A program made the translations under genes and the position numbers. From assembly GCA_947179485.1 (NCBI GenBank), contig OX359245.1:23609067-23673066 (forward strand): a stretch of 64,000 nt of DNA, written 5' to 3'. Origin of the DNA: Allacma fusca (taxonomy: Eukaryota > Arthropoda > Collembola > Symphypleona > Sminthuridae). The notes under the pieces are model-generated. The model saw only the letters and a program-made list of their open reading frames with translations. It did not search any database and was not told the origin of the DNA. Positions 9,088 through 58,049 of this stretch are shown piece after piece. Positions within the stretch are counted from its first letter, which is position 1, and each line of letters begins with the position of its first letter.

Positions 9088-10049
9088 CAGGGCTGCACAA
9101 TTGAAAATTCCATGGCATTTTCGGCATTATGCCTGCCCAAAATGACCTGGCATTTTGGGCATATTCAGCCTAGAGCAGGCATTTTCGGCATATTCATTCC
9201 ATTTTTTTTAATGTGGCTTTAGCAACTTGCTAGTTTCGCAAAATAAGTCACAAAATAGTATGTTGCAAATAATTTTAATATTCAACTGGATTACATGATG
9301 AAATTATAGAAACAAACTGTTTCCAAAAAGGTTGAAACCTGGAGCAAGTTGATATAGACATGTTTATGAAAAACAATAATACTTATGTTGTTGTAAAAAT
9401 TCGTTTGTACACCGTGCCTGTAATTATTTAGACTTCAAGAACAAACATTTTCGGGCAAAGATGCAAAACAAAAAGAAAATAAACAATTGTTAAAGGATTA
9501 AATATATCTTTGTGAGCTTCAAAACTCGCCATCATCTAAATGTATTTATTGTTACATTTTGGACTCCTAGAATTATTACACTGCTTTACTAGGGCTGATT
9601 AAACGCAATTTTCAAAGTCGACACATTTGCTATGGAGTTCTGACGTATTTTATAACCTATAATCTTATGTATCTAATGGAAGTGTAAATTTTCTATACTT
9701 TACAAGCCATTACCAAAATTCGGAATTTATGCTGCAACTGTGCAAGTTGCTCTTTCCAAATCCCGAAGTTTTTTATAATGTACAGCGTTGAACTTCGCTG
9801 GGGCTCAAATTTTTTTAAGGATTATTGAAATAACTACCGGCCATAAGCAACGAATTAGACGAATTAAATTTGTTTCAAATAAATTATAACAGTTTCTAAA
9901 ACTGGATGGGTTTGATTATGCTTTGAATAATTCTCTTATATTCACTAAAGGAGAAATAATGGTCATCATATATACGTTTCTGTAAAAATGCCGGGCATTT
10001 TCAGGAGGGCAGGCATAAAACCTAGGGCATTTTCATTTGTGCCACCCTG
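9088..10049. mobile_element. Non-autonomous hAT element with GGGCATTTTCGGCAT repeats
   Basis: 962 bp flanked by a perfect 8-bp TSD AATACACA (9080-9087 and 10050-10057). The tips read CAGGGCTGCACAATTGAAAA on the left and, reverse-complemented, CAGGGTGGCACAAATGAAAA on the right. Inside each tip are degenerate repeats of gggcattttcggcat and its complement. The 8-bp TSD and CAGGG start are typical of the hAT superfamily. The interior is AT-rich and holds no transposase. The element at 56886-58049 has the same repeat word and a related tip. Confidence 0.93.
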
Positions 10050-10100
10050 AATACACAGTATTTATTCAAAATGAGAAGGCACAAAATGAAACACTTTACT

Positions 10101-10967
10101 GGGCCTCAATAAAATGCGGGATGGTGGGATGGCGGGATGGCGGGATGACTCAATAAAATGCGGGATGGTGGGATGGCGGGACGACTCAATAAAATGCGGG
10201 ATGGCCTCAATAAAATGCGGGATGGTGGGATGGCGGGATGGCGGGATGACTCAATAAAATGCGGGATGGTGGGATGGCGGGACGACTCAATAAAATGCGG
10301 GATGGCGGGATGGGATGCAGGATTACTCAATGTAATACTGCGGGATGGGATGCGGGATCACTCAATAAAATGAAAAAACAGTCATTCAACTTACTTGTGT
10401 TTGTGGGAATATAGCCCAATGAATCCTGTGAATACAAGAAGATCGTAGTTTATACTCTAGCTTATAAGGTAAATGAATAATTTCAAAATTCGAAATTTTT
10501 TTGGGGCATATTTACAAAACGCTCCAGCTTGTTGCTAACCGTGGCTAGACCTATCACGATATTTCAGATTTTCGAGTATATATAATTACACTAATATTTA
10601 AATGAACACTAATACTGCAGTTTTGTAAACATGACCCAAAAAAATTTCGAATTTTGAAATTATTCAATTGCCTTATAATCTAGAGTATAAGCTACGCTTC
10701 TTCTTGTATTCACGGGATTCATTAGGCTATATTCTCACAATCACAAGTAAGTTGAATGATTGTTTTTTCATTTTATTGAGTGATCCCGCATCCCATCCCG
10801 CCATCCCGCAGTATTACGTTGAATAATCCTGCATCCCATCCCGCCATCCCGCAGTGTTTCATTGATCCCATCCCGCATCCCATCCCGCATTTTATTGAGT
10901 CGTCCCGCCATCCCACCATCCCGCATTTTATTGAGTCATCCCGCCATCCCGCATTTTATTGAAGCCC
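10101..10967. mobile_element. Foldback-type element with GGGATGGC arms
   Basis: 867 bp between two copies of CACTTTACT (10092-10100 and 10968-10976), a 9-bp TSD (or 8 bp with one extra C). The tips are GGGCCTCAATAAAATGCGGG and, on the other strand, GGGCTTCAATAAAATGCGGG. The terminal repeats are not short: the left arm (10101-10530) and the reverse complement of the right arm (about 10625-10967) match along almost their whole length, leaving a loop of roughly 95 bp. The outer arms are tandem cgggatgg/gactcaataaaatg units. A 9-bp TSD would suit a Mutator-like or Merlin-like origin; no transposase is present. Confidence 0.88.
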
Positions 10968-11022
10968 CACTTTACTAATGCAGTGCACGTCTCTCCCTCT
11001 CTCATGCTTATATATATAAATA

Positions 11023-11137: not shown

Positions 11138-11139
11138 AA

Positions 11140-12806: not shown

Positions 12807-12823
12807 AGTTCTTAAAGGAACGT

Positions 12824-16618: not shown

Positions 16619-16639
16619 GTATGAGGTCAATCAAATAAT

Positions 16640-18071: not shown

Positions 18072-19894
18072 CACTGCTGCCCTAGTCTAGTCAGACTAGA
18101 CTTGAATAGACTAGGAAGCAAAATGGATGTAAAAGAATAGACTTGACTTGACTACGAATGGTGTTACATTTATGGGACTTGACTAGAATAGACTAGGGCA
18201 ACTGACGAAAACACAGGACTTGACTAGACTTGACTTGCATGACTCCGTGGTAAAGCTAGTCAAGTCATAATTACTTGAGGCTCTCTCATGTAGCTGAAAA
18301 TCATAGCAAGAAAGCCAGAAAGCAATTCCAGTACGGTTTACTTTGCTTAAGTAAATATATGGTTTTCGTTTCTACAGATTAAAACATGAAATTGTCCACT
18401 AAGCCACGTAGAAATGTTTAGGAAAATCTAGTTTTTAGTTACAATTTCTTCGTTAACAAGGAAATTGATCATAATGAAAGCTACGATACATTTCCCACAT
18501 TTCATTTTTGCGGAAAAAAATGTCTATTAATACTCTTCAAATTGCCACTGAAATTAAAAATAAGATTAATTAGGATACACTTTCCTTCCTGGTGGAGGTC
18601 CTCGAACATATACCTGATGTGATTATGGTAGTTCACACTACACAAACTCCATTTTCTTATACCTGGAAAAATACCTGATACATTATATTGTACCAGGCAC
18701 TTGTTGAATCTCGAATACAGTTCTAATGTAGGAAAATGTATAACACTACCACGTATATAATCGTAAGAGAAATAACGTAAGTTCCACCAATAGTATTTTC
18801 ACCCCATCGAGAACGCATTGGGTATAATTGGGAGAAAAATTAGTTCTGCCAAAGAGGAATCTGATACCACCTCGCTTACGTATTCAAGTATTAAATTTAA
18901 CCACAGATCGATTCCACAAATTCTGATTCATCCCCAACATTTTAGTGTCTGTTTACTAATTAAAAACATCATGTCAGCTGGTATTAATACTATTTAAATT
19001 AATGACTTCTTTAAAACACTCGGTGTAGCTTACGGGATTGCTCATTGGCAGAACAAATTTTTCTTCAATTAATACCAAGTTTGTGGAATCAAAACATGTG
19101 ATTTCTTGTCATCAGCACCAGTTTTAGAAAAATTAATGCCACTAATGTTGGTGGTACATCCGAAATACACTCGATACAATTTACATATGTGTTTTGTCAT
19201 TGTTATCTCTAGTTTGTTTTCCACTAATACCAACTACATACCTGATATTTCTTCCTTTTGCCCAAACCCCGCCACCAACCAAAGAATCGATCTTTCTAAC
19301 GTGCCCTTTCTTTAGCAATGTCATTTTGAGGTTCAGTAACTGCCTGGTGCAATGTTTTTATACCCTCATACAAACTACAACAAATTCTACTAAGTGTACC
19401 GGGTACTTCCCGTAGTACGTCCCAGTGGAAATATCATATACCCGACAATATCCCCATCTTCAATCCCTATATACCAGATAGGAAAGTTTAACCACTACTT
19501 TATAAACTGACAACATTATTCTTGTATTGATGTTGTAAAATACACGAGTTAATTCTCATTTGTACGTCGTTTTATGCAAACTAACATGTGCTAGTTTTTT
19601 ATGGATGTATTCGCTACAAATCTGAAAATTTCCGACTCAGCGAAACTCAAGTTTTTGAAAATAACATTTTTCATATGTTGCTGATCAAGAGGAAGGGATT
19701 TTTGCAAAAAAATATAATGTGACTAGGGGAATAGACTAGACTTGACTAGGGAACCAGCTGTAGAATCAAGACTAGGACTAGACTTGACTATTGCTACTTA
19801 AACATTCAGCTGACTTGACTAGACTTGACTAGTTGCGGTTCTAAACATAAAAGAGTAGACTAGACTTGACTAGGTAGCCTGGCGGGCAGCAGTG
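18072..19894. mobile_element. hAT-like element with CTAGACTTGACTAG repeats
   Basis: 1823 bp with a perfect 8-bp TSD TCCTAATA (18064-18071 and 19895-19902). Both tips read CACTGCTGCCC (the right one reverse-complemented). Inside are degenerate repeats of gactagacttgactag at 18082-18260 and 19725-19880. The interior holds a second repeat family (18585-19495, see below) and no transposase. TSD length supports the hAT superfamily. Confidence 0.92.
18585..19493. mobile_element. Probable nested element with ACTTTCC...TGGT tips
   Basis: Left edge acactttccttcctggt (18578-18594) and right edge accagataggaaagttta (19474-19495), which reverse-complements to taaactttcctatctggt, are inverted repeats. 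Between them lie dispersed tacctgatg, taccaggcac and ttaataccaagt words like those at 21090-21440. No TSD was found, so this is inferred from the inverted ends alone. Confidence 0.5.
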
Positions 19895-19912: not shown

Positions 19913-20205
19913 TTTCTTGCAGGGGTCGGATTTTTGTAAATCTCCCTGGAAGATTTTTTTCATTTTCCCTGCTGGTCATGATGTCCCTGTTCGAAGCAAA
20001 TTTAAATTTCCCCGCTGACAAAAAATCATTTTCGTAAATCACCACTACAATTTCGAAAATCCCTGTTGATAAGTCATTTTCAGTAAAACACCTCAACAAT
20101 ATCGAAAATCCCTGTTTGCAATCCCGTTTGAAAATTTCCCTGCTGAAATGTTTTTTTCCCTGGAAAGATTCTTCCCACATAAATCCTTGTGTGCCGTCGA
20201 CTACA
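19913..20205. repeat. Block of CCCTG/AAAATC repeats, CAGGGTCGGATTTTTG family
   Basis: Starts with caggggtcggatttttgt and contains repeated aaaatccctgttt and tttccctgctga words, ending near gggaagaatctttcc on the other strand. A second member with the same opening (gggtcggatttttgtggg) is at 48418. Probably another non-autonomous transposon family; no TSD found. The minus-strand frames here are repeat-derived. Confidence 0.5.
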
Positions 20206-21555: not shown

Positions 21556-23100
21556 ATGGAAGATGGTATCGAGAAACTACCTTCTCCACGAGCCTCCAGA
21601 AGTCGAAGCCGCTCCAATATCAGGAGATCTCCGAAGTTCGAGCTCGGAAGATCGCCGGTCATCACGTCATGGACGCTATCGACACTATAGATCTTCTTCC
21701 AGGTGTGGCTCGAAGGTAAGTTCCCGAAACGAATACAGATTCCTAAAGGATAAAATGGACCGCCTTGAACGTCTTTTGTCAACTCGTTCGGCTCATAACT
21801 CGCGTAGTTCACGATCCCGCTCGCCTCTTTCTCCATCCTTTTGAAGATACTTCTCCCGTTCCCTTGACAACAGGGACGGTGACTCGGAAAATAAACAATT
21901 AGCTTCAGGAAAAGACAACTTGAAAGAAGACAGTGATCTAGAATGCTTGGGGCTGGTTGGCGCTGCCGAAGACACGTCCGGCGAGTGTGCAGAATCTATT
22001 AACTTTGACTTAGCCGCTAGTTGGAATCTCATCGCAACAGCTGGCTTGTGAGAAAAGAAAAGAACTGACATTGAGAAAATGCGGGCGCCTCCGTCGAACT
22101 GCATATTGGTGGGTGCACCCAAGTTGAACCCTGAACTCCGAGCTGGAATTAATATTTCAGACCAGCGATGGAAAACCGGAAAATATGGTTTCAGTTAATA
22201 CCTTAACGTTTCTGTCAGAATTATTTACGTTAACGTCATAGTTTACGTTATCTGAACAAAGGGTTATTGGTACAAACGGTTACGGCTTCCTTGTTATTCT
22301 GTTAAACGGTTAAAAACGGTTTTCCAAAATTACGGTTAGTTTCCATGACATACAGTTAAACGGTTGCAAACGGTTATAAAAATAATGTTTTCTAATTTTA
22401 ATCGCAGAAATATAAATGTATAGCTTATTTATTGAAAAAACAATAGAAACTGCCTGCAAATACATAAATGCCTCTCAGATCCATTTACTCGAAGAAATAT
22501 AATGGTGTTCAGAAGTTCATCTGTCAATCTTATTCTTCGGTCAGACAAAATGTACTTGCTTATAGACAAAATCATTTGCTTATGTGTCAATAATTACCTA
22601 TAATGTAAGTTGCTACGGAATGACTTTCTGTAGCTTCTATGCGTTTCTATATACGACATAAAGATAGCACATGTTGAAAGAATTAGTTCAAATAAAACGA
22701 AATAGAAACGTTTTCGTGTCTCTTTTGAGATCAGCCTTAAGGAGCTTACAGGATGGTAATATGTGGGATTTGTAAAAACGGAAAATAACGTTTATATTTT
22801 TGGTTATGGTTTACGTTTTTGGTTTTAAAAATCAAACCTTTGTGTTAGTTTTAGTTTAACGTTATTACATATTTTCCGTTTTTTTCGTTACTGCAAACCG
22901 TTTTCTTTTTTTCCGATAAGGTTATGAATAACGTTATTTATCCTTGTTTCCGACTACGTTTTTAATCGAGACCAGCAGTTTTCTTCATGGCAATCCATCA
23001 TTTCTGGTTCCCTAGCTGAAATAGGAATCCCAATGTCCGCGGCAATTCAGCTCAAAAGATCAAAACAGATATCTTCCATTGACTTGACTGGCTTAATAGT
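21556..23100 (+). pseudogene. DIRS-like retrotransposon ORF1 (gag-like), decayed
   Basis: Arg/Ser-rich N-terminus (SRSRSNIRRSPK at about 21590; RSSSSEDRRSSRHGRYRHYRSSSR in another frame, given here only as a composition note across 21640-21715), then a frame from 21841 to 22140 ending LVGAPKLNPELRAG, which resembles the PxLNPEL motif in arthropod DIRS gag proteins. The gene shifts frame and has stops. A hAT-like element (22167-22968) interrupts it, and the reading continues after the insertion with a SSWQSIISGSLAEIGIPMS segment. The tyrosine-recombinase retrotransposon pol part follows on the same strand at 25.28 kb. Function in the family: RNA binding and particle formation. Confidence 0.6.
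22167..22968. mobile_element. hAT-like element with AACGGTTA repeats
   Basis: 802 bp flanked by AGACCAGC (22159-22166 and 22969-22976), a perfect 8-bp TSD. Terminal sequence is (c)gatggaaaaccgg on the left and (c)gattaaaaacg, reverse-complemented, on the right. Each end is packed with ttaaacggtt, gttaacgt and aaacggaaaa words. Removing it with one TSD copy leaves the DIRS gag frame continuous across the site. No transposase inside. Confidence 0.85.
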
Positions 23101-25275: not shown

Positions 25276-25846
25276 GTAAGGACGCATGTTTGCTTATTCC
25301 CATTCATAATTTATTATAGAAATACCGCAGATTTGAATGGGATGGAACGCTATACGAATTCACATGTTTGTGTTTTGGTTTGCATGTAGCACCCAGAATA
25401 CTTACCAAGGTTCTTCGAGTAGTAATGACATATGTACGTACCCGTGGTTATGCGACCTGCATTCATTTAGATGACTCATTGTTACTCGGTCGCAGTTACG
25501 AGTCTTGCTTGGACAACATCGGATTTACTGTCCGGACTTTCGAATCGCTGGGGTTGGTTATCTACTACAAAAAAATGCCTTTGTTATACACAGAATACCA
25601 TTTATCCCGGCCTTATCTTTGATTCAAGCAGAGATGAATATCAGATGCTTCTCAAATACAAACTACAAAATACTAAATACATACTTGAGAAGTAGAAAAT
25701 ACAAGCTACAAAATACTAAACACATTCATGAAAAGTAGAAAATACAAACTACAAAATACATTAGAAACGCAGAAAATACAAACCACAAAATACATATTTG
25801 AAGCGTTGAAAATACGGAATAAAAAATAAGCATTGTCATATATCAT

Positions 25847-28486
25847 TTATAGGTCGTTCGCTTTGAGAAGCGATAACTCGTCCAATAACTCAGTTATCCA
25901 TTTATTTACTTTTTTATTCAGAATCGTTGCAGAAGAATTAAATATGCGTTCATCTGGAGCTGAAGATGGTATGCATGTGCTGTATTTTATAAATATTTTT
26001 CGAACGGTAGGGTACCCTGCCAGTATACCAACGTCTTCAGCTTTATCCTTAAAAACCTTAGACACTCATTTCGTGTCTTTTCAGTTGATTCTTGTACGGA
26101 TGGCTCGCTAAAGTCTCCAAATTCAAACAAAATCAAATTTAAATCATCAGGCACTTGAGCTACAGTTTGAAAATTCCTTACAGGTGTGTGAAATAAATTT
26201 GTCACACAAGTTTATGTTTTCCATATCCGTAAGCTAAGTTACCCAGCGCAACTTAAAATAAGGATGAGACAGCAGCTATTAGTGCCTCGTTTTTCTCCAC
26301 GTCCAGCAGCATATCTGAAGTAAATCTTGATCGCAGTCCCTCTAATAACGTTGTTGGAATGCTTTTGCACTACTGAAAATTTTCTTCTAAAAGAGCCTGT
26401 AGTTTGCGCTCATTCGCAAATAAAGTTGGCACCAGTTAACCAACTTTAACCACGGGTTCAACACATTTAGCAAATTCGTTCAGAAATACAAAATCTCCTT
26501 GGTAAAATGCGGTAAGTCCCAGTGCAGACTTCATTTATTGTAGGCTGAACCTTACGTAGACACTTTACACTATCATATAAACGGGTCCATCTTGTTCGGT
26601 ATGGTGTTTTAAACCTTCTTTTGAATACATCTTTGGCAATTTCTGCCATTTTTGATGATCGTCCTATTTTATTCCACAATCCACTGCATTTAGAGATAAC
26701 CGGCTTGAATTATTTCGGAGATTTTGTCAAATTTGCTGTACACAGTAACGACAATGTGTGACTTGAACAACGATGTTGATCTGGCAATATTGCATATTTA
26801 TTTGATTGGTCCCGAGGGTTTTCACCCATAACCAAAATAATCTAGCAATATAACTTCCTCTTCATCTACATGTTTCTTAGATTCAAAAATCAAATCGTCA
26901 TTACACACAGCTTCATAAGAATTTAGTCCATCCCCACAATTTTCAGATATATTCGATGCAAACTCTTCGAAGGCTTTAACCAAATTACTACCATTATAAG
27001 TAAGGGTTCCCAGACAATCCGGAATGACCGTCGTTGTCCAGTGTCCCAGAGGGGTGTATTCCGGGACACGTAATTGTCCCGGAAACGTCGAGCGCCATAA
27101 AATGTGATTCCAAGCGTAACAAAATCGCTTAGGCATCAGGTGATAATTAAAAAGGTCTAGGTTTTACAATTCTATATGAGAAGAGGTTGTCAATTCAAAA
27201 AATTGGTTACGTCGAAATGGCAAAGATGACAAGACCCCTGCTGGGATTTTAGTGTGTAAACCGACTTTCTTCGTGAAGTATAAAGAATTTAGGTGTGTTA
27301 AATCTCCAATGTAAAGTTCCTAAAAACCTAGAGAAAGCAGGTGCTGAAATCTGGAGACGATTTAAAATTCAACATTTTTGCTGTTACAGTGCGAGCAATG
27401 CGACCGTAAATCACTGTCACCAAAATTATGTGTTTTAGAAATTCCAGGAAGAAAATCCATCAATTGTTGCTGCTAATTGCAAATATCACATTATACAGAA
27501 CGCTGTAAAAATGCATGCAATAAGGTATCAATGGATGCTGAAGGTTTAGCTTTAAAGGTTTTTAGCGAAAATATAGCTGGTCTGCGCAGAGACTAGACAC
27601 TTTAAAACAGTTATGTGAATTTATGGAATTGGCTTTCTTTACTTCCAGCACTGGACAGATTCATGTCCATTTTAATGTTGGAGTGTAATGATTGCACTCC
27701 TGGAGAAGTTTTAGCCATAATGAAATCTCTTCTGGAAAGCTCTGTAAACCGATTCGATAAATTTAACGGAAGTACCGTTAATGAAATTCTGAAAAATTTA
27801 CCCCCGGCAACAAAACAAAAGCGCTTTGAAAAGGATTTGGACGCTTTGGATTTTTTTGAAACAGACATTTTGATTTCAGTGATACTAGTTGTTATATGTG
27901 ATTTTCGATGACTAGTCCAAGCGTCAGCTGTAATACATATATGCTCTGCACTCTTTAGTTTCAAAATATTTTCTAGTTTGATTTCTTTGAATCATGGTGG
28001 AACGGCTGATTAACGCAACGTCGGGATTTAATTGACCGATATTAAAAAGGTTTCAAAATATATTATGGATATTTTTTAATTTAATGTAATATGTTATTAG
28101 TACTATAATTTTGTATGTCGCATAGGCAAGTAAACTATATTTTGATACTCCCATGTTGAAAATAAATTAGGGCTAGTTAGAAAAATAAATAAATTACCCT
28201 GAATTATTTCAATAAACTGGTTCTTCGGCAGTTGATAAGGGACGCGTGCCTTTCTAGGTTGACAATTAGTTTCTCCGTTTTGGTCATAGATTTCTCTGTG
28301 TCCTTCTTTACATATGGAGTTATTATATATTATAGTTGCCTGCAATGATCCATTAATTAAAGCAGTTGTTGAACTATACACGCACTTTGCCGTTATTTTT
28401 TGTCCGTCCTGTTTTTGGATTTTCAAATATTCCACTTGTAGTATAAAAGACACCTGATACTCCAAATCTTCAAGATTTTTGCTCAT
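25847..28486 (-). pseudogene. hAT transposase remnant
   Basis: Reading leftward from 28486: a BED-finger-like start (AKCVYSSTTALINGSLQAT, second zinc cysteine lost), then ICITADAWTSHRKSH at 27955-27905 (first part of the RNase H-like catalytic core), then after the nested insertion YNGSNLVKAFEEFASN (27005-26950), an IARST...DKISEIIQAGY stretch (26770-26700), RTRWTRLYDSVKCL (26600-26560), and finally the C-terminal dimerisation domain IPSSAPDERIFNSSATILNKK with LLDELSLLKAND (25990-25850). The order matches hAT transposases. Numerous stops and frameshifts make it a pseudogene. Confidence 0.85.
27003..27890 (+). mobile_element. Truncated hAT copy, TAGGGTTCCCAG family (copy A)
   Basis: Begins aagggttcccagacaatccgg and carries the CCCGGGAC-type words (tgtcccggaaacgtcgagcg), then matches the element at 34906-38017 through two blocks including LMLECNDC and SLLESSVNR at 27675-27780. 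It ends after cagtgatact (about 27890), where the host transposase sequence resumes. The right tip present in the other copy is missing, so this copy is truncated. Confidence 0.8.
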
Positions 28487-29047
28487 TTTTTTAAATAGTT
28501 ACGAATTTTATTTTTGTTACAATATAATTACTTTCAAGTTATTGCAGACACAGGAACTGCTTTCGCATTCAGGAAACGAAAAATCCAAAATCTTGAGTTC
28601 AGTTTTATGGAATGCTTAAAACGATTGCATTTCGGGTTACTTCATTGTTGTGATTGGGTTTTGTCATAAACGGAATTTTCTTACTCTATGAAAGTGCGAC
28701 AACCAAAAACAGGCACGCAGCTTATATGGAGTCCAAAGTGCAAAACACGCACGTGCAGAAACGAAAAACTGGAAAATACATTGTGACGTAAGACAAAATA
28801 CAAACTACATTGTGTCATAAGGCAAACTACAAAATACATTGCTTACTTCACATTAGACCAAACATAAACTACAAAATACATTGCTTACATCACATTCGAC
28901 CAAATACAAACTACAAAATACATTGCTTACTTCAAATTAGACCAAATACAAAATACGTACCAAGTGACAAAAATACAAAATGCAAAAATGTATTTTAAAT
29001 ACGTATTATCAAACTTTTACAACATTTCCAGACCGGCAGTAGACAAG

Positions 29048-29690
29048 TAAGGTTTCCATCCGATCGGATGATCCGCGGATATCCGAAATTTCGGATCGGA
29101 TTCACTACTTATCCGATCCGAACACAATCCGATCGGATCGGATACGTACCCCTTATCCGGTCATCGGATTCGGATCGGATCGGATTTGGAAACGACTTTA
29201 TCCGATCGGTTCGGATCACAAATAATAAATATCGGATAATCCGACGGATATCCGGAAATCTTTTTAAAATTTTTTTTAGAGCTTTCGAGTGACCAATAAG
29301 AACAAAGTGTGCAACAACAATTTGTCCAAGGAGTAACTGTGCCGCTGTTTACGTATTTTCTTATTAATTCTGTGCTTCAAATTTACAGCGGTGTTTGTAA
29401 AGATTTCCTTCAGTTTGTACGTAATGTATGCAAAAATATTTAATATTGTGATGTAGTAAAAAGCTAATGCATTTTTGCAGCAAAAATTTCTAATAATTAC
29501 TTTTATCATCATCGAATGGTATCAATTCGGATAATTTCGGATATCCTAGGGTCGGATCGGATACGGATGAATAAAATTTTTATCCGATCCGTAACGGTCG
29601 GATCGGATAATAAGAAAATTTATCCGAAAATTTCGGTTCGGATCGGATTCGGATCGGATATTCGATTTATCCTGTCGGATGGAAGCCTTA
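29048..29690. mobile_element. hAT-like element with CGGATCGGAT repeats
   Basis: 643 bp with an 8-bp TSD, TAGACAAG/TAGACAAC (29040-29047 and 29691-29698, one mismatch). Tips TAAGGTTTCCATCCGA and, reverse-complemented, TAAGGCTTCCATCCGA. Both ends are filled with cggatcggatccgat words. It lies in the DIRS pol, just right of the larger hAT, and the DIRS frame reads across the empty site. No transposase. Confidence 0.92.
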
Positions 29691-37932: not shown

Positions 37933-39696
37933 GGAATCGTGTATATATGTAAACAAAATTTAAAATTAATTATTTTGTCCCGGAATGACGTTTCGAAAAA
38001 GTGGGAACCCTACCCTAAGCACAATGATATTTTTGAACTTCAATTTCAAGGAAAATGATTCAGTTATATTCAAAATTACGAACTAAAACAATCGGTTCAA
38101 TTTCATTTTGAATTGAATCAAAAAGTAGTGAATTGAACTAGACGAAAAATTTCTAATTTCCGAATTGAATTGGTTCGAGAACTAGGTACATGCGACCATA
38201 TTAAATGTTTAATTGGAAGATTTCCATTCTGGTTGCTAAAATTGTTAAACATTGCCTTAATTAAATTTTCGTCAGGCCTAAGAATAGTTGTTTTAACCAT
38301 GTGTAGTGGCAAAGGGAATAATGTTTTATTAAGTGTAGCAGCAAAGGAGACCCTTAGAAGTATTTTTGGTGTAACAACTAGATTTTATGCAGGTTGTGCT
38401 AATGGTGGGATCACAAATTTTAAAAAGCAACAAAAAATGATGAAGCAACTAAGTCCATGACTCTTGCAAATACGTCTGTTTCAAGCATTTAAGAAACTGA
38501 TGATAAAACTACAGCTGCCAAATTAACCCTTACAGAAATATATTTGGGACTAGTTGTGCTACGGCACGGTTCCAAAGAATGGAGCGTGATAGGGCCTTCT
38601 GTTTACCTCGAAGGCGCTGCGCGTGTATTACGTTACAGGAGCCTCCTCTCGTCGTCTACTTTAGCATGCAAGCAATGCTTGGATGCTTGCTGTATGTACA
38701 CGCATGCAATCCACCCGTCCCTTACGTCTTGAATGAACCCTTATGTATGTATGTATACAAAATGCCCGTGTGGGTTTTTTCCTGTTTTCACGGTGAGTAC
38801 AATGTAATACGCGATTTTTTAAAATTTTGATTCGTCGTTCATATGAAGCTTTACATTTTGCAGTAAAACATTTATGCAGATTACGTTGTGCTCACCGTGA
38901 AACTATATCCGTAATGAGCAAAAAATTTGATGTAATTTTTTTTAAAAACCCGTTATTTTTATCCCACGTTGTCCGAAAAAATCATGAAGCAACCTTAGGG
39001 TGCTATAACAATTAAACAGTATGCCAAATAAAAATGCTTGAGTTATTAATAAGGGTGCTAAAAATTATTGAAAATTTCGGGCTTTTACCTTCCCAGTACG
39101 ATTTTGCGACCGCATTTCCTCCCGAAAATTGCTAAGAAGTACATGCACATTCACTGGTATACATACAAATAATTAACGACTTGGTGACTTTAGCTGTCAG
39201 TTTCCAAAAAAAAAACAAACTCCCTAACGTATAATGGAGTAAAGCATTGTCAATCTTTCAGAAGCTCGGAATGTATTTCTAGTTTAATGAGACACAATTA
39301 CAGATTCTAAAATCGGTTTCATAATGGGAAAACCCAAAGTTGCAGCTTTATTTTAAAATGTTCTAGCTCCATTTTTGTTTTATGCTTTAATAAATGAAGT
39401 AATACCTCAGGAATGTTAATTTTCTGTAGAATCAGATGCAAGAAATGAAAAAATTATTTTCCACCGCTTTAAGATACGTTGTTAGATTAATATGAAGAAT
39501 CGGAAGAATGAGGTTAACTGTATTTGTATTTTCTGTCACGGAGGAGCTTATTCAAAATTCTGAAACTAGAATCAACATGTTTTGGCATATGCAAGCCAAA
39601 TACAAAAGTTAAATTGCTTGAAACGTATTTGGTTTTTGATTTTTTAAAATTCAGTTAGAAGTCCTGATTTAGAAATCAAATAACCTGGGCACCCTG

Positions 39697-44442: not shown

Positions 44443-47400
44443 ATGCCTCCTCCTCGCAAGAAGTATCGTCGTGATGAGAGTGAAGTTAGTTGCTGTTTGA
44501 AGTATTTAATTTTTGGCTTCAATGTCATATTTTGGGTAAGTCTTATAGTTTATTTTAAACCATTTATTCTAAGTTTCTTGCAAAATAGTTACAAGAAAAA
44601 TAGTAACTACAAAGTAGATTTTTTAAGTAGTACCGGGGCGGGTTAGTACTCCTGTCCTACTGTTCAGTTAAAGTTAACCCACGAGAATCCTTAAAAATGA
44701 AATCTGCAAGTGTAACAAAATCTATAAATTATTGTGTTCATTACTAATTTAGTGTTGTGTTCTTGTAAAATGGTTTACAAGAGATTAAACCCCACATAAA
44801 TTCAGAAATACTGGGGTTTGGACGTCTGGAGTATCGAAACTACGAGTTTCGTGTTAATCCAAAACCCAAAAATGGAAAATTGAGTAGTTGGCTTGGTATA
44901 CATAATTTGAATACAGGGCACTCAATTTTAACAAATTCTGTGTCAGGTTAATATGCATTTTCATGTGGATGTTTTTTAAAATGTCAATGTTTGCTAACAT
45001 TTCTACATGTTTCCGCTATTTTTCAAATTTGGGTAAACCAAAAAACTCTACATAGGTACCAAGAACATTTGTTTTAAACTTTTTCGGTATTAAGAAAGCA
45101 GAAATGTAAATCAGATTTCCTTTTCTGTTAATAATAATCCTGTATTTTGTGAAAAACACCCGAATCACTGACAATAGTAAACTGTTTTGCTGAATATTCA
45201 ACTTAACTGGGCCAAACTAACAATAAATGACCTGACATTAGAATATTATATTATAAGAATATTTGGTCATCTTTTATGGGCACAACTACATGCTATCCGT
45301 GAATTATGATTTATTGTGACATCATGTTGAAATAGCCGGAAATAATTAAGCTGCTGACAGTTTGGGGTACATTTATGTTTTTATTGGTTCTTCCCCAGTT
45401 TAACTTTTATTATCGTTGCGTCCATGCACAGGTAAAAATTGGCATGACATTTCAACTCAATTTTTTTGTTTTCGTGAAATTATCAAACGTTCTGTATGTA
45501 CATAGGTGGTTTATGATTTCTTACCGGGTAAGTAGAACTCAATCAGCCCGGATTTCCGTGTCTTAACTCATAATTCATTTTATGCAAGGTGGATTTGTTT
45601 GTTTTAAAATTCCAGTTACTTGGCCTATTCATATTAGGCGTGGGTGTTTGGGCGTGGAGTGAAAAGGAAACTTTGTCTAATTTATCGCGCTTGACACGTG
45701 TAGCCCTGGATCCTGCCTTCCTTCTGGTAGTAGTTGGAACATTGACATTCATAATCGGATTTACGGGTTGTGTTGGCGCTCTCAGAGAGAATACGTGTCT
45801 ATTAGCAGTCTATGCAATTTGGCTAGCTGCTATCCTCCTCGTGGAAATCGCCGCTGGAATCTTAGGGTGTTTACGCAATTTTGATTTCTATTGATATTCA
45901 CAATTTACTGCAATATTAGTGTACCTACTCGTTTCTATAACGTCACCATTGTGCTCTCTTTCAGTTTTATATTTAAAGATTGGATCAAGGGTGAAGCAAC
46001 TAGCGGGTTCCAGTCTTTCATTGTGTCATACCGGGAAGACCCCGATCAACAAAATTTAATCGATTGGATTCAGGAACGTTGGCTCCAGTGTTGTGGTATT
46101 GAAGGTCCAAGGGATTGGGATAAAAATGTGTACTTTAACTGCAATTCAACTGCCAGAGAAGCCTGTGGTGTTCCTTTTTCGTGCTGTAAACAATCTGTCG
46201 GACTTGTAAGTTTTTCCTAATTCCCATAAAATGTTTACCTTGATTTGTCTGCTTGGCATTTCAGTTCTTATAATATTTCATGAGGGTGTAATATTACTAA
46301 CCGTGTTTTTCATTTAATTTAAACTTATTTTCAGCTTTATTTTCGTAACACACAATGTGGGTACGACGTCCGCAAGCCAGAATTCGTAAGTTGCCTCACT
46401 TCAAGTTATGAAATATTTTTAATGTTTTTTTGTTTTCTCCATTTACGGTTTTGTGTGTCATGTCATTCCGCTGTTATATAGTGTTTTGTATCAATCATGC
46501 GCCTACTGTATATTCTTACATGTACATTTAGTCACCTGGATTACAAACTAAATACAGTTTAATGGTAGCGCCAGCAGTGGGTTGTCGGTTCAATAGAATT
46601 TTTTCTTGAAATAATATAATTTTATTATTACATATCTGCATGTCTTGTTAGTTTTCACCCTATCTTTATAATAAGTTCATTCTTCTTCTCGTGCCCCGAT
46701 ATCATATCTACTTAATTAGAAAATAATTCATTTGTTGTGGACCGTCATGAACCAAGTTTTGAAAGCGCTTCCATTCAGTTTCTATTTTCTCTTTTGCTTT
46801 TAGTGGTATAGACTTATGCTTTAAATTGTGGAGTGTATTTTATGGTAAGTGTTGATGCAATAAAAATGATTAGTTCAAAAATGGTTGTGTTGTCGCCTTT
46901 AAAATTATCTGTATGTAACTGTGGATTGTGGTGCTGTCAATTGGACGAACTAATGATACTACCAGGATAGTAATTATTACACTTTTGCTGTAATGAATGT
47001 ACTCATTGTTATGAAAATACAGCCCCAGGATCGAGGTTTGGTGATTTATGAGAAAGGCTGCCTAAGGTCTGGTGAAGAGTGGGTGGAAGCCAATTTAATC
47101 CCTGTTGCTGCTGTAGGAGTAGCGGTTGCTATACTTCAGGTCTCTACTTACACACCTAACATAGCTGTAGTAATTAATTGTATGCGTATAATTACTCACA
47201 CCTACTCTTACGTATTAATTGCGGGATAATGGGCTCGGATTAAATTTTCTAATTTGGAAGCGTTGGTACCTAAAAACTTGGTGTCTGGTAGGCATGAGCG
47301 TATCGTTCAATTTTAAAATATCGTTAATCTTCCTTTATCAAAACCAAGCCTGTCTGTACACATTTGAAACTACCCGCTCGAATCACCATAGAGTGCAAGA

Positions 47401-50400
47401 CACTCAATTCTGTCGAAGCCTTCGGGTTTATGTCTGAAGTCGGCGTCTCAAGGCTAAACGAGATAGCGACATGCCCTATGCCTTGCTAAACTGTACCATA
47501 ATACAAGCCAATAATCACACCAGTTAATAAGAGATAGCATAGAGTTAATGGCTCTCAGTGGCGCAATCCTAACCGTACGTTTACGGGTGTAGTTGCTACA
47601 GTACTGCTCATTGTTAGTGTAGTTGTCAATCTCTCAAAACCTCTCTCTAAAAATTAACTGTAGTTTTCTATTGTAATATAATCTCTGAAGATAAAAAACT
47701 TTCCTCCAGCAGGGTTCTACAGTCTTTGGTTTGATCAGTCCGAGTCCTCTATCAGTCCCAGTCAGTTTTGTATCCCAGATCTATCAGTCCCTATCAGGCT
47801 CAGTCAGTCCACAAATGTATATTAATGTATTTAAGACTGCAAGAGCTCCCATAACGTTGAAACCACATTGAAAACGTTCAATTTCTGCAACTATGTATGT
47901 TCCTATTTACTCAGACAGAAAATCCCCACTAATTGAAATTATTTTATTTCATAATTTTCCAACCTATCCATTGCAGTTGAACAGATGTTGGTTCAGTAAT
48001 TTGGAAAAATAACCACGGAATAACTATCGAATTCTCCAGACTTCAAATTTTGTTCGGTACAAGAATTCAATATAGAGGTCATGAAAGGGGTAAGTGATGG
48101 TGGTTACTTGGAAAAATGAAATGATAGAATTACTTTTAATATAATAAACTTTCAAACAAATAATTTGGCTCTCTTTGTAGCAAATTCAAACAGATTAACA
48201 GTAAACATTTACAATATACAACAACTTTGTAAGGTGAATACTTGGAAGGAAGAGACCAATGATAAAAATTAACTTAATGAAACGTATCTGAAATACCCTG
48301 CTACTTTTCTTGGTCCATGCGATTTTGAAAGCTCAGTTCAGTACTTGCATATGTTTGCCCTCATTAGCAGTATTCATATCAGTCCCAGTCAGTCTCAGTC
48401 TTAAAAATAGGACTGTAAGGGTCGGATTTTTGTGGGAAGACGGGAAGATTCTTACCAGAGAAAAAATATGTCTGGCAGGGAAAATCTCAAAGGGCTTCGC
48501 GAACAGGGATTTTTAAAATCGTTGACCTTTTTTTAACAGGGATTTTCAAATTTTTTGACGTGCTTCAGGGAAATCTAATAAACAAACAGGGATTTTTGGA
48601 TTGGCCTAATTTGGTAGGGATTTCACGTCTTGTATCGGTATCGTTAAGAAAAATCACGATACCGATATCCATGAGCGATATATCGGTATTTGATTAAATT
48701 TAAAGCAATATACTAATTTTGATGAAACACTATCAGATTTAACGTATCTTTGCAGAATATTCAATATTTGTAATGTATTCTTCTTAAAACAGCCTGTAAA
48801 ATCAAATTCCTTGAAAGATTGAACTTTAAGACCTGTAATACTTCACTGATGACATGCCCTGGATTTTTTCATATTAGGAACTGGAGAGCTGGTAAACGGT
48901 GGATCGTTTGAACTTCAATAATTTAAGTAAAATGATTCCGTTCAATTCAAACTGAACCAATTGGTTCAGTTTCGTCTTGAATTGAATCGAAATTTTCCGA
49001 CTCAGGATTGAATTGGTCCGAGCACTATCGGCATCGGCCAGCTCAAACAAACTAAGTTTGAAAATGCTTGTTTACTACAAATAAGCATTTTGTTTTTTTG
49101 TATTACTACAGTTCTAACTTCGAATTCAGACAAGTATTTTTACAATGCCCGAGTTTTATCCGTTTTGCCCAGACTTTTTCAGTGACATTTATAACGTTTC
49201 ACATTCCTTAATAGCTTTACTTAAAAAACAAGTAGTAAGAGGGACACAGGGTGGCATTTTTGAAAATTAAACTTCCTATGTACGATATTAAAATTAACCG
49301 ATATATCGCTTTAAAATTGCGAGAAATATCGTGACATATCGTTGCTTAAAAATGTACGATATGGACCGATATATCGTATCGTTATATCGTTCCGCTCATG
49401 CCTAGTGTCTGGTGGCACACAAATTTTAAATTTTAGATTCCACTGGTAGCCAGTAATTTCGGGTTCTAGGATATTAGACCCTATGGAAGCTTCAACTTAA
49501 GGTTCACACTTGAAAATTATCTAAGCCAAAAACTTTTAATTTTAATGTCTAGCTAACAGCTAAAAAAAATTTGGAATTTCGCAAAACTCCCAAATTTTTT
49601 CCAGCCAAAGTTAGACAATTACATTGTTTCAACCGAAAAAGTCTAGAAACCTATTGCTATTCATGGCTTTCATACATAGCTTAATTTCACGCAATAAATA
49701 TACATAGTGTTAACAGCTGTACATCATGAACTAGTATAAAAAATGGTTAATAGTCACTTAAATGTATGTTTTATTGTTTATGGTGGGTTTGAATCCTGAC
49801 TGACAACAATTAAATATTTGCATGAAGCAGTCAGTGACAAAGTAACCCTTGGGTACTGTGGGGAGCATGCCAGGTTCATATGTATTTATGTATACTGTCG
49901 TAAAATTCGCTTAATTAGGGTATTCTGTATTTGGTGAAATTATATCTCCTCTAAAGCTGAAGACTTTGGTAGGAGTAGGAGGAAACCATCCACAAGTGTC
50001 CTCTGTTGTGATTTTTTGTGTTTTAGCTAATTTGCCATTTGTATATTTTGATTTTTATCTGAATATTTGAATATTAATATCCAAATATTTGTCGTGCCTT
50101 CATTCTTGAGTTTTAAATTTTAGAAACTTTCTTTATTAAGTAGTTTGGAAAAGTGAGCTCCTGGAATATCAATTGTAGTTAAGTTGAAAGTTTTTTTTTC
50201 ATGTCTTTGAAGCCTGTAATGAACATTCGGAAACCAAAAAGTGCTTTTAGCCGATTCGGGTAACTTTCAAAAATATTAGTATAGTAGAGGAATGGAGGCC
50301 CAGTGTAAATCAGAAAAAACTGTTTCTGGCCAATATCTTAAAATTTTATGGACATTCATTGTTTGTCTCAATTTTTGGTAGATTGTTCTTTCTTTCCGGC

Positions 50401-50979: not shown

Positions 50980-50984
50980 CAATT

Positions 50985-52667: not shown

Positions 52668-53164
52668 GTTGGATATAGGGTACCCAGAAGTCCTGATTTG
52701 ATCCAGACTGACCTGCTTTGACCCAGGGTCACCTGATGACCTGATGAGCTTGAATTTAGTCCTGATTTCACAGTTGGTGACAAAAATATCCTTTTGTTGC
52801 ATTTCGGGACAAAATGAATAAAATTTGACATATCATCATTAAGTCACTTTGCCCCAATAATACTATAGTAACAACTAGTAACTACGCACACGCACATGAA
52901 CCTAAATGTACCCTTGCATGTAAAAAGTTTATAATAATTTGGAACGTTTTTATTTCGTTATAATCTAAATTGCAATTATACGTAACCGTTCTGTAGTGTT
53001 CACTTACAGTTACCAATAAAAGTTTATGATATCTAAGATCATGACATGTACCCATATAAAAAGTTTAGTTGAAAGATTTCGTTTTTCGTTTTAAAGATCA
53101 GTAAATGTTGTATTAAATAATGATTCGTAATGCCAAAGAATAGTTGTCTTTACAATGTACAGTG

Positions 53165-53455
53165 GGAAAAGTTGTATTAAGTGCAAAAGAGGCAAGCATT
53201 TTTGGTGCAGCATCTGTACATTTGATACAAGTTGTACTAATGGTGGGATTTCGGATTTCAAAGATCATATATCGACATAAAATCATAATAAAACGTTAAG
53301 TGCGTGAGTCAAGCTAATTTGTGTTACAACGTTACAAGCATTTAAAAATCAAAGTGGTGACAAAACCACGGCTGCCTAATTAGCTCTGGCTTATCATGGA
53401 GTAAAGCATTACCAATCTTTTTAGAAGTGAGACAAATATTTCCAGATTCTAAAAT
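53165..53455 (+). pseudogene. hAT transposase N-terminal remnant (BED finger)
   Basis: Plus-strand reading KCKRGKHFWCSICTFDTSC, then NGGISDFKDHIS, an internal stop, and LALAYHGVKHYQSF with another stop. The paired cysteines followed by a GGISDFK.H helix is the BED-type zinc finger layout of one hAT group; AYHGVKHHQS is the conserved block after it. The copy is dead; the LINE enters right after it at 53460. Confidence 0.65.
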
Positions 53456-53459
53456 AGTT

Positions 53460-56454
53460 GGCTTGTTTCAAACACATGTATATTTTCTGTCCTCCCAATT
53501 TTAATTTTTAAGAAAGTAAAAAATAAGGAGTCTGAAGTGAATAAAACTCGAAAAAATACTCCTAGTCGAATCCTAAGCCTTTATGTCTCCAGGGGAACTA
53601 GTTTGACAGTTTTTAATCCACAAGTAAAGACAATTCAGTTAAGACAAAATCATAAGAAGAAAAAACAAATCAACCATGCCTGGAAGCAAAGAAGAGAGCA
53701 ACTCGAGTCAATCGTAGAGCCGCAGCGGGAGAGCCGAGAACCGAGACATAAAGGAGTTCATGGCAAATACTGAAATCCGTTTACAGCAACTGGAACAAGA
53801 AAATGAATCCCTTAAAAAAAAGAAATTGAAAACCTCAAAAAGCAACTCATAAATTCCAAAAACGATTCGACTTTCAACCAGCCAAATAACAAAGAATAAC
53901 CTCATTGTATCCGGCCTGGACAAAATCACAGATCACTCAAACACGAGCACACCAAGCAAAAGCTGTAGTTAATTCGTTCCTCGAGGAAAAATGAAGATAA
54001 CCGAAAACCTTTCCTTCAGCTGCGAAATTATCCTTCCGAAAACTAAGTCAGATGCGCCATCAAGAAAGCCCCTAATCAAGTGCAAATTCAAGAACATCTC
54101 AGAAGCCAACAAGGTCAGGAGCAAACGAAAAACACTGACGGAACGAACAGTCTGGATTAACGACGACCTCAATCCTCAGCAACTATGTAAAAATAATAAG
54201 CAAGCTGGTGGAACGAAAGACAGAATACAATTCAAAAGATCCTGAGAACATCAATACATTACATCGTACATCAATTACAAAAAATTCACTCAAATTTATT
54301 AAAGCAAAAGAAAAGGGAGAGTTGGGAAGAAACTAAACGTAAACTACGCGAGCACAAAAATACATCCCAATTTCGGAAGACAATCGACGTATTCCGTAAT
54401 GGCAGACAACCCCCGAAATTATTAAAAGAGGAAAAGTGGGTACATGTCTATAAAGAACATATGCCTCCTAAAAGCCTTGGCGCGTCACAAGACTCACAAG
54501 ACAACTAAACGCAGCTCTAACTACATTGAAAAGAAACAAAGCTCCTGGGTCTGATAAAGTTACAAATGAATTCCTAAGGAACTGCCACCCTAACCTACAA
54601 AATCAAATCCTACTTCTGTTCAACGAAATTTGGAAGTCGGAGCAAACTCCGATGAAATGGTCAGAAATAGAATTAATGACTCTTCACAAGAAGGGAGATG
54701 CAGAAGACCCAATCAACTACAGAGGGATTGCTCTGATCAATACGAATGAGAAACAAGTCACTACGATAGTGTACAAGAGGGTCTACAGCTGGTGTGAAGA
54801 GAACTGAGTTATCGCAGAATCTCAAGCCGGCTTTAGGCAAAACCGTGGGTGTACGGATAAGATATTTTGCTTAAATTCTATAGTACAATCAAGACTATCA
54901 AGAAACTTAAAACGTTTTCCCCTCTTCGTAGATTTTAAGCGGGCATTTGATTCCGTCAAGCATCATCTCCTTTGGGAAAAATGGACACGCTGGGAATTAG
55001 TGGGAAAATCATTAAAATCATTAAGTCTGTATGATAACTCGAGCTTCATTATAAGATGCGTAGGTCATTCCAGCCCTATTCAAGTAACAATGGGAGTACC
55101 CCAGGGAGAAATCCTTAGCCCTTTTTTTCTATTTACATTAGTGACCTGGATAAATATATGGATGACCACGGAACAACCCCAGTTAACATGGGATACGAAA
55201 GAAGAATAAACCAACTGTTATTCGCAGATGACACGTGCATCCTTGGGGATAGCAAAATCAGTTTACAAAAAAATTGCATTCTACAAAAATACTGCACTGA
55301 AATGGGACCTACTTAAGACGAAAATTACGGCTTTGCCCTAAGGGAATCTTACCAAAGAAAACTAAGTGGTATTGGGAAGGAACGGAGATCAGGACGGTAA
55401 AAGAGTACAAATACCTAGGCATAGTTTTTCAATCCTCAGCAACGTTTAAGAAACACCTCGTCCATGTGAAAACTAAAACTTGATGCGGCCTCAAATAAAT
55501 ATTAATAAATGCAATTAACTCCTCCCCTATGGACTCCTGGGACAGCACAGCTAAACTATTAATCGCAACAATGCTACCAATACGCCTCACCAATATGGGG
55601 TCTAAACCTCCTCGAGGAGATTGAAATTATCTAACAATTTTTTCTTAAAAAACTTTTGTGGTTACCCAGATCAACACCGAGATACTGGATACGAGCCGAG
55701 ACAAGGAAAGTAAACTCATTGGTTCAAATAGTCAAATTGACAATCCTTCTATGAACAAGAATTCTCTCCATGGACAAAAGTAGGTACATATGTGAGACAG
55801 TGCTATGATAGGCTGAAGGAATTATCCGAATTAAAAGATACTAATCCTAAATTTAATTGGGTCCTCCAAACAAAGAACCTGCCCTGCAACTTCGGCTTCA
55901 TCTCGGTCTGGAAGAAACAATCTCCGGAAGGTATTACGGACAACCTTAATGATATTCTTGAATATGTCAGAATGCAGATTGAACAAAGAAACATCCAAAT
56001 AATTCTAAGCTCATCATATTCAATTGATTTCAAGCACTACAAAACCAATGCACAATTACCAAATTACCTAAGAGCCTGTATTCCCCTCAGTACTAAAAGA
56101 ACTATTGCTCAACTAAGAGCAGGAAGTAACAAAATTTATTTTAGGAAGTTTAAGATTATATTTACCACGAATCCTGCGTTTACTGTTTCCTGAATGCAGA
56201 AAATGACTTTTCACCTTTTTATAACCTGTATACATTTCGAAGCCCTGAGTAAAAAAATCCTGGGAAAATATATAGCAAATATAAGAAGAGAGAATTTTAT
56301 ACTCTCTTTAAATTTCAGGATACTGACCATCTATTCGGCATTACAAATTTTATTAAGGAATGTGCTGTACTGCGAAATGATACATTGTAATACAAGTATG
56401 TTATGGGCGAGACCCGATTGACATGAATAAATATATGTATCTATCTATCTAAAT
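53460..56454 (+). mobile_element. Jockey-superfamily LINE with (ATCT)n tail
   Basis: 2995 bp flanked by agattctaaaatagtt / agaatctaaaatagtt (53444-53459 and 56455-56470), a 16-bp TSD with one mismatch. ORF1 remnant near 53690-53850 has a coiled-coil-like stretch IRLQQLEQENESLKKK. RT follows at 54526-55350: KRNKAPGSDKVTNEFLRN, PINYRGIALINT, SQAGFRQNRGCTDKIF, MGVPQGEILSPFF and LLFADDTCILG. The endonuclease normally found before RT is reduced or absent, so the copy has an internal deletion. The 3' end is aataaatatatgtatctatctatct. Confidence 0.87.
54526..56193 (+). pseudogene. LINE reverse transcriptase, decayed
   Basis: Frames 54526-54807, 54808-55209 and 55792-56193 hold in order the APGSD start of the RT domain, NYRGIALINT, the VFVDF-like FPLFVDFKRAFDSVKHHLLW motif (first catalytic aspartate region, 54925), GVPQGEILSP (55089), FADD (55223) and a C-terminal region of unknown fold. 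Stops and frameshifts separate them. The catalytic aspartates are still readable, but the gene is not intact. Confidence 0.8.
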
Positions 56455-56885
56455 AGAATCTAAAATAGTTACTTCATTTCAATTACAACCGGTTGTAATA
56501 GTATTTTCAGTCATGGAGGAGCTCATTCAAAAATTTTAAACTAATCAAAGAAAGTTTCAGCGGTGCTAATTTGACAAGTTGTCTTCACAAAACAGGGTCG
56601 GATAAAATCAAAGAAAAGCTTAATATGTTTTTACAATTCATTTGCTAATTTTTTGAAAAAGTGGTATAATTTTTCAGACTAACTTTCACAACTATTTAAT
56701 GTTCCTGTGTTTAGATATTGTTTTTATATTATATGTTTATATATATTTTTCATTTCTAGAATTGGAAGCAGCACTTAAATCCGTGAAAATTGAACTATAT
56801 AAATATAAGCTGTTTGACGAATATGCAATTCTAGCGAAGTCCGTTAATTCACAAAGTTACGAAAACAGTTCTTAACGGTTGTGTC

Positions 56886-58049
56886 CAGGGTTGGCCAAAT
56901 GAAAATGCCCTCGGTTTTATGCCTGCCCGCTTGAAAATGCCCTGAAAATGCCAAAAATGCCCTGAAAATGCCGAAAATGCCCTACTTTCAAAATGCACGG
57001 CATTTTGGGCATTTTCGGCAGGCATTTTGGGCATTTTCGATTTTTTTTGTAAATAATCATTATTTACCGCTCTTTTTTATAGACCAGATTGTTTTAAATG
57101 TCAAACTTCATTTTAAAATATACATTTTACAGAATGAATTAATCTAAAGCTTCGCAATTTGAAAACTATTAGTATTCCTACATCGTTTCTTCCCCTGTGC
57201 ATTGTTAATCTAATTCAACAATATCCTCAACATCAACTCAGCTTCGAACTCCTGAAAAGTAAAACTATAATTTTCGTCATCTAAAATATTTTTTTCCAAT
57301 TCAGGGAATGCAGTGATATTTTATACACATGATAATCATGTCTAATTTGTTTTGATGAACTCGGTTCTGGCTTTGTTGAGAATTATTTCACCAACGCTGA
57401 TTCTTGTGAGCTTAAATCGATTTCTGTAATCACATCGATGTCCAGAGCAATACCCGTTTTGGTAATAAATTTGGATAATTCCCGTTTTACCTCCACTTGG
57501 GCTTTTAAACTTGCATGCGAGCACGCCACTTCATGGTATAATCCAACTGCTTGTTATGAAAGTAATTACACAACGTTTTATTTTCACCGATGTCTGACCA
57601 ATGAAGCTGAATATTGTCATTGATTCGAGGTATCCTGATTAAATCTCAAGTGAAAATTAAGAAAATGGAATGAGATTTAAAATAATGATACTACAAATGT
57701 TAGTATAGTGAATCAAGACACGCTACAATAATGCAATTTCAGGTATGCATTTATAAAGATATTTGAATTAATTCAAACAAAAAATGTATCGAAATTTACC
57801 TCGCTGAAAAAATAATAGAAAGAGTCCATGCAGAAGTATCCGAAGAAATGATTGAATATGCCCAAAATGCCTGCCCTACGCGGATTATGCCAAAAATGCC
57901 GAAAATGCCATAGATGCCGAAAATGCCATAGATGCCGAAAATGCCATAGATGCCGAAAATGCCATGAATTGAAAATGCCCAAAATGCCCGGGCATTTTCG
58001 GCAGGCAAAATGCCCAAAATGCCATGGCATTTTCAATTGGCCAACCATG
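56886..58049. mobile_element. Non-autonomous hAT element with AAAATGCCGAAAATGCC repeats
   Basis: 1164 bp with a perfect 8-bp TSD GTTGTGTC (56878-56885 and 58050-58057). Tips CAGGGTTGGCCAAATGAAAA and, reverse-complemented, CATGGTTGGCCAATTGAAAA. Subterminal repeats gggcattttcggca and ccatagatgccgaaaatg (four near-identical 18-bp tandem units at 57895-57965). Same repeat word as 9088-10049. Interior frames are short with no domain recognised. Confidence 0.94.

Follow-up and report, generated by a model that had tools for sequence, protein, structure and literature searches.

Subterminal word arrays as putative BED-finger binding sites in several hAT families of the springtail Allacma fusca

Why does a single stretch of 64,000 nucleotides from the genome of the springtail Allacma fusca hold so many transposon ends lined with short repeated words, and why does the word change from one element to the next? 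The original prediction, made from the letters of this stretch (the window, located at 23.61-23.67 Mb), took nine elements with 8-bp target site duplications (TSDs) as hAT-like, and explained the variety of words either by rapid co-divergence of transposase and binding site or by an unrecognised way of growing such arrays. Here, these elements are named after their predicted start positions, and loci of the searched assembly (392,743,791 bases, 91 contigs) are named L039, L040, etc. The window elements are members of hAT DNA-transposon families, non-autonomous or decayed, and partly nested (Table 1). We consider it very probable that the word arrays represent putative BED-finger binding sites in several springtail hAT families, and that the many words stem from many old lineages.

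Table 1. Elements and word blocks of the window, followed by transposase-bearing elements of the genome; coordinates refer to the window.
Feature	Coordinates	Strand	Length	Word and unit	Tip	TSD and remarks
9088, non-autonomous hAT	9088..10049		962 bp	GGCATTTT(C/G)	CAGGGCTGCACA/CAGGGTGGCACA	AATACACA twice
18072, non-autonomous hAT	18072..19894		1823 bp	ACTTGACTAG, 5-bp unit	CACTGCTGCCC	TCCTAATA twice
22167, non-autonomous hAT	22163..22967, right end approximate			AACGGTTA/AACGTTA	CAGCGATGGAAAACC	start taken from copy starts
29048, non-autonomous hAT (MITE)	29048..29690		643 bp	CGGATCGGAT, 5-bp unit	TAAGG(T/C)TTCCAT	TAGACAAG/TAGACAAC
34601, non-autonomous hAT	34601 (or ~34592)..38184			TTCAGTTCAG/GAATTGAA, 5-bp unit		GGTGCATG/GGTACATG, one mismatch; split by 34906
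34906, decayed hAT with transposase remains	34906..38017	+		CCCGGGAC		AGCACAAT twice; nested in 34601
47289, hAT	47289..49404			CGATATATCG, dense right array	14/16	GTGTCTGG twice; holds nested word blocks
52676, hAT family end	52676..58845				TAGGGTACCC/TAGGGTGCCC	GTTGGATA/GTTGAATA, one mismatch; holds 56886
56886, non-autonomous hAT	56886..58049			GGCATTTT, 9-bp unit	CAGGGTTGGCCA/CATGGTTGGCCA	GTTGTGTC twice; nested in 52676
Decayed hAT transposase	25500..29000	-		ACAAAATACA, 7-bp unit		between two arrays (25654-25815, 28773-28990); absent from the original prediction
ACTTGAACTTG block (block 6012)	6005..7028			ACTTGAACTTG	CAGTGCTGCGG (right)	L052 has this word (similarity 0.92) and almost this tip
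MITE-like block	19920..20191			CAGGGA(TTTT)	CAGGGGTCGGATTTTTGT	look-alike with both tips in L062
Remaining predicted word blocks				CAGTCCCAGT; ACCCGGGTAA; GGGACAAAAATAATTGTCCCC		no TSD
L066, transposase-bearing			3339 bp	CGGATAGG	TAAGGTTCTCAACG	perfect TSD; relative of 29048
L049, transposase-bearing			3791 bp	GAAGGA	CAGAGGTGTCCAT	perfect TSD
L068, transposase-bearing			4452 bp	GAACTGAAC	CATGCTTGCAGT/CATACTTGCAGT	perfect TSD
L089, transposase-bearing			2914 bp	TAACG	CAG(G/A)CCTGGATAAC	perfect TSD; relative of 22167

The predicted TSD strings are present in the sequence for all nine elements, six as perfect duplications (9088, 18072, 22167, 34906, 47289, and 56886) and three with one mismatch (29048, 34601, and 52676); those of 22167 and 34601 are doubtful. 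Outside the window, perfect TSDs flank L039, L040, L041, L066, L049, L068, and L089. In hAT elements, the short terminal inverted repeats have A as their second and G as their fifth base. A strict scan for TSDs combined with hAT-like tips, demanding A2, G5, and a 12-base tip match, gave six matches in the window, including four of the nine elements (three with a perfect TSD). The other two matches have one-mismatch TSDs and are taken as chance; six simulated sequences yielded 0-3 matches each, none with a perfect TSD. Elements 34906 and 52676 show TAGGG at both ends and were missed on other criteria. G5 is absent from 47289 (TAGGC) and, at the right end, from 34601 (TAGTT) and L057 (TAGTA). 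The TSD of L057, identified by eye, has one mismatch.

Boundaries were compared with genome copies of eight families, for each of which 40 out of 208-801 candidates were scored, including the window copy (56886 was not searched separately); copy starts were tallied over 39 copies per family, excluding the window copy. Most of the predicted boundaries were confirmed: copy ends agree for 29048, 34906, and 52676, and for the right end of 47289. Copies start at most one base from the window element in 30/39 cases for 29048, in 25/39 for 34906, and in 21/39 for 52676, where a further 10/39 start 36 bases further in. The right-end copies of 47289 (40/612 candidates scored) end 0-6 bases beyond 49404 in 39/39 cases. 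Two boundaries did not stand as predicted. In the 22167 family, not one of the 39 copies starts at the predicted position; 18 start at 22163 and 21 start 1-16 bases further out. The left end was corrected to 22163, and the predicted TSD spans the junction of flank and tip. The tip of 34601 is ambiguous: the family has two tip versions, with 14/39 copies starting at 34601 and 13/39 starting 9-10 bases earlier, and these two start modes are the reason for doubting its TSD. Element 9088 has 73 genome matches (40/801 candidates scored). Copies of 18072 show 87-100% identity (40/392 candidates scored), L039 and L040 reaching 99% over 1838 bp, and three of the four stretches examined (L039, L040, and L041) have perfect TSDs of their own.

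Coding remains in the window are decayed. Those of 34906 gave weak phmmer matches (E 0.005-0.04) to hAT C-terminal ORFs, and the transposase at 25500..29000 matched hAT ORFs weakly (E 0.001-0.04), the matches following each other from N- to C-terminus. It lies between the two ACAAAATACA arrays, whose period-7 signal has z-scores of 5.4 and 6.0; element ends around it were looked for and not found. ORFs at 54472-55209 inside 52676 resemble reverse transcriptase by eye. Among the further word blocks of the original prediction, elements matching ACTTGAACTTG and CAGGGATTTT occur at other places in the genome, and CTGGTAT has 11 scattered matches. A left end of the ACTTGAACTTG block and a TSD of the MITE-like block were not found.

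On the protein level, a genome search with the hAT dimerisation profile (PF05699) put all 150 scored matches over the cut-off (860 candidates), and a zf-BED profile gave 35 matches (150/327 candidates scored). Pfam detected a BED or dimerisation domain in 8/8 ORFs, all of which had been chosen for earlier matches. The dimerisation domain was found in five of these eight ORFs, which come from relatives; the window itself shows no more than decayed traces. Pfam recognised the BED finger in L085, L076, and L088 and in none of seven window ORFs; other BED fingers were read by eye. For the RNase-H-like DDE catalytic core, there is one hAT-like_RNase-H match below the cut-off, in L090.

The strength of an array was measured as the best 8-mer count in two 220-bp tips, with one mismatch allowed and both strands considered. 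As a null, known repeat blocks of the window were masked and 300 random segment pairs drawn from the rest; 299 of them gave at most 7, and one gave 9. The counts are 25 for 56886, 19 for 29048, 17 for 18072, 12 for 47289, 11 for both 9088 and 34601, 9 for 22167 (measured from the old start), and 8 for 34906. Of the arrays predicted in eight elements, seven reach or exceed the null maximum, 22167 by a tie, and that of 34906 is beaten by 1/300 pairs. With counts of 8 and 9 against a null maximum of 9, 34906 and 22167 are therefore borderline by count alone. Element 52676, predicted to be the exception, indeed is one: its left 440 bases give a best count of 5, which is not above the null, and a CCTGAT/TGACC motif occurs within its first 100 bases.

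Unit lengths were determined by autocorrelation over 26 array sets, some of which are relatives, with array limits drawn by eye. A 5-bp peak was found in eight sets (18072, 29048, 34601, block 17750, L068, L057, L045, and L052) and a 6-bp peak in five (22167, blocks 6012 and 47710, L047, and L054). Further peaks lie at 9 bp (9088 and 56886), 7 bp (both ACAAAATACA blocks), 10 bp (L066 and L061), and 4 bp (L049). Some of these peaks are weak, namely those of 22167, 9088, L047, and blocks 17750 and 47710 (z 2.2-2.6; z 2.2 for the 9-bp unit of 9088). In 34906, 47289, blocks 42150 and 19921, L085, and L089, the top lag is at least 13, with z 1.8-3.3.

How arrays change in length can be read from close copies. 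L090, which is 97% identical to L066, has an extra tandem 36-bp copy in its left array; this difference may be a gain in L090 or a loss in L066. The window copy of 18072 differs from L040 by a sole indel in 1.84 kb, a 15-bp stretch in the left array. This stretch is present in 5/5 other 18072 copies examined (one of which coincides with the L040 locus), so that its absence from the window copy is probably a loss. Short tandem duplication or deletion, as directly seen here, thus suffices for changes in array length, and the unrecognised growth process proposed earlier is not needed to explain them.

The arrays extend to transposase-bearing elements. A word cluster of at least 8 was found in the 3' flank of 16/30 hAT loci versus 0/90 shuffled flanks (the step of the scan was coarser for the latter); among the 16, L052 resembles a nested element and L065 a plain tandem repeat. 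The other 14/30 loci have no 3' array at a cluster threshold of 8, and the BED-bearing loci L083, L084, and L086-L088 show no word cluster of at least 7. A TSD scan of transposase loci revealed credible ends in 3/8 of one set and 0/5 of another. In the 22167 family, 4/39 copies lie at most 6 kb from a dimerisation match, three at 332-334 bp and one at 2.8 kb; in each of the other seven families searched, 0/39 scored copies lie within 6 kb of the 150 scored matches. Triple-word places of GGCATTTT occur 30 times in the genome (0 in the reversed-pattern control), and 0/30 lie within 6 kb of these matches. The position comparison covered scored copies versus scored matches, and partners may have been missed. 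In the 22167 family, a transposase-bearing hAT was directly found; 29048 and 34601 have transposase-bearing relatives that agree in word and tip, and those of 18072 do so in the tip alone. For the remaining families, no transposase-bearing member or relative was found, save the decayed coding in 34906. As originally predicted, each family has a word of its own; transposase-bearing copies elsewhere in the genome have words of this kind close to their termini.

A strict one-to-one pairing, which would have supported the original idea, did not hold. The tip CACTGCTGCCC of 18072 (word ACTTGACTAG) recurs at 14/14 positions in the transposase-bearing L085, whose word is GAATAG (word similarity 0.07). 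The L085 left end is matched at 100% at exactly the four loci with BED and dimerisation domains and at 87-88% at 36 other scored places; a right end was looked for and not found. L085 shares its word with L045 despite a different tip. L045 and L047 have the same tip CAGTGATG, transposases 34-44% identical, and a word similarity of 0.09; with a measure tolerating one mismatch, the value is 0.31, versus 0.61 for L045/L085. Conversely, a GAACTGAA-type word stands behind two unrelated tips, that of 34601 and that of L068/L061. The best word pairs are block 6012-L052, 9088-56886, 29048-L066, L068-L061, 22167-L089, and L085-L045, and the word of 34601 pairs best with L068, L061, and L057.

Mantel tests summarise these relations. 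Tip and word are not significantly correlated among 19 elements (rho 0.13, p 0.07), a set in which the 22167 tip was guessed from one end, the L057 left tip is one base off, and 52676 was left out. A second set comprises nine transposase-bearing elements, none from the window, with the L057 tip in its correct form and a word measure tolerating one mismatch. Here, the C-terminal transposase correlates with the word (rho 0.48, uncorrected p 0.04) and not with the tip (rho -0.02, p 0.52), and tip versus word gives rho 0.09 (p 0.29). In the eight elements whose finger could be read, BED similarity is not significantly correlated with the word (rho 0.30, p 0.085), nor with the tip (rho 0.22, p 0.13) or the C-terminus (rho 0.07, p 0.36). 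These are six uncorrected tests on few and partly related elements, one of them below 0.05, with array limits chosen by eye. That word similarity weakly tracks transposase similarity, and tip similarity does not, is a hint rather than proof.

By analogy with Ac, Hermes, and Herves, the words most likely serve BED fingers as binding sites. Each array would form a binding-site cluster for the N-terminal BED zinc finger of its own family's transposase. The finger would read the word, its binding would gather several transposase subunits at each end, and the catalytic core would then cut at the terminal inverted repeat. Tip and word would be read by separate parts of the protein and could thus drift apart. 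The variety of words would come from the coexistence of many anciently diverged hAT lineages, each with its own finger. With more reserve, we propose as a tentative possibility that tip and word are two separable specificity modules: the tip may be kept while the array is replaced (18072/L085), or near-identical pentamer words may come to stand behind unrelated tips. A preferred unit length near 5 bp, or half a turn of the helix, would persist, and an array would be replaced as variant units duplicate in tandem and then spread to both ends.

Other readings of the same data have to be weighed. It is rather unlikely that a rapid arms race between transposase and word in young lineages made the many words. 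In its favour, pairs with a constant tip and different words (18072/L085 and L045/L047) show that a word can be exchanged behind an unchanged tip. However, the compared transposases are distant and hence give no rate, the close copies L066 and L090 (97%) retain their word, and L061 and L068 (~54-69% over matched stretches) retain both word and tip. Where words differ, the transposases mostly share 20-50% identity in the stretches that could be matched; old coexisting lineages therefore suffice, and the rapid co-divergence put forward at the outset is not needed. We regard it as improbable that the words are passive simple-sequence expansions, produced by replication slippage or tandem duplication and tolerated by hAT tips without being binding sites. 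Unit periods of 4, 5, 6, 7, or 9 bp would fit with such an origin, as would the tandem blocks in 56886 and L049 and the 36-bp duplication and 15-bp gap inside arrays. Yet words match at both ends, often in both orientations, and begin beside the terminal repeats; they vary from family to family and are found again in elements with a transposase, and slippage alone would not yield the same word at ends kilobases apart.

The assignment to hAT itself leaves very little room for doubt. The P and Merlin superfamilies likewise have 8-bp TSDs, and the atypical tips CATGCTTGCA, TACTGGTCGG, and TAGGC of 47289 might point to such a superfamily or to chance matches. This is extremely unlikely, given that relatives encode Dimer_Tnp_hAT and BED domains and that independent copies have perfect TSDs; the hAT-like identity is borne out on the same grounds. 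Within one genome, hAT transposases whose predicted binding sites can be read form a natural panel, including pairs that share the tip and not the word, and pairs that share the word and not the tip. It makes testable how a transposase and dozens of sites at two ends can change together without killing the element, and might yield hAT vectors that do not cross-react. The A. fusca genome looks suited to watching subterminal words change. In a literature search by title and abstract opening, with most subscription journals outside its scope, no paper on hAT elements of A. fusca was found.

Among known systems, Ac/Ds of maize has subterminal repeats of the AAACGG type. The 22167 array has AAACGG as one of its most frequent 6-mers, a resemblance on the level of short words. 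For Hermes of Musca domestica, AAGT is reported as the subterminal repeat that the BED fingers bind, with cooperative binding at the left end (PMC10368747). The likeness lies in short subterminal repeats near the ends; in contrast, the Hermes sites described there are scattered 4-mers, and binding to right-end sites was not seen in the experiments reported (PMC10368747), whereas the A. fusca arrays often have 5-bp units, denser runs, and different words. For Herves of Anopheles gambiae, a subterminal motif CG/AATTCAT was described as bound at both ends, and the authors remarked that motifs differ between hATs (PMC3143072); the motif is another one, and a single element was studied in that report (PMC3143072). 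A further known case is that of BED proteins of the CGGBP/hAT-19 type, whose related fingers are reported to bind many distinct motifs, those of all four hAT-encoded CGGBP-type proteins matching the subterminal region of their own element, with the difference that most motifs given there contain CGG (PMC8097297). Subterminal-repeat architecture and motif diversity among hATs are hence already known, here seen in many families of one genome, and the aspect that deserves further attention is that tip and word are decoupled.

Among the 40 scored of 612 candidates in the genome copy search, 15 matches to the family of 47289, a hAT element of the window, lie in the same orientation on the contig that also holds the window (OX359245.1:14558626-14589149). 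Their spacing is approximately 2035 bp in 13 of the 14 intervals between scored matches, and the repeated unit includes the right end of the family. Apparently, this region is a long tandem array built from an amplified hAT copy.

Within the window, the inverted array pair near 10 kb contains a perfect 101-bp tandem duplication; a window scan for TSDs and hAT-like tips found no hAT ends for it.

Further features in the window
Feature	Position	Description
Array pair	10102-10350 and 10775-10960	GCGGGATG/CATCCCGC arrays, inverted
Additional element	36260-37590	inside 34906, a decayed hAT; inverted ends GGGA(G/T)TGTGCACATATTACGTTTCATTTTT
Tandem repeat	40178-40980	137-bp unit, 5.9 copies, 90% matches

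Elsewhere in the assembly, locus L054 carries a further array of GGGTAC/GTACCC-like words (oriented positions 500-900), with a hAT domain downstream. Repetitive translations (VPVPIP, YPYPYP) occur in L041, an 18072-family copy, and in locus L042, which suggests that this word is present there, too.

Loci L084 and L086, both with long ORFs and BED, reveal no detectable word array in a cluster scan (none of 7 or more). They are 98% identical across about 3.87 kb, a segment that was copied not long ago and may be a hAT element devoid of word arrays.
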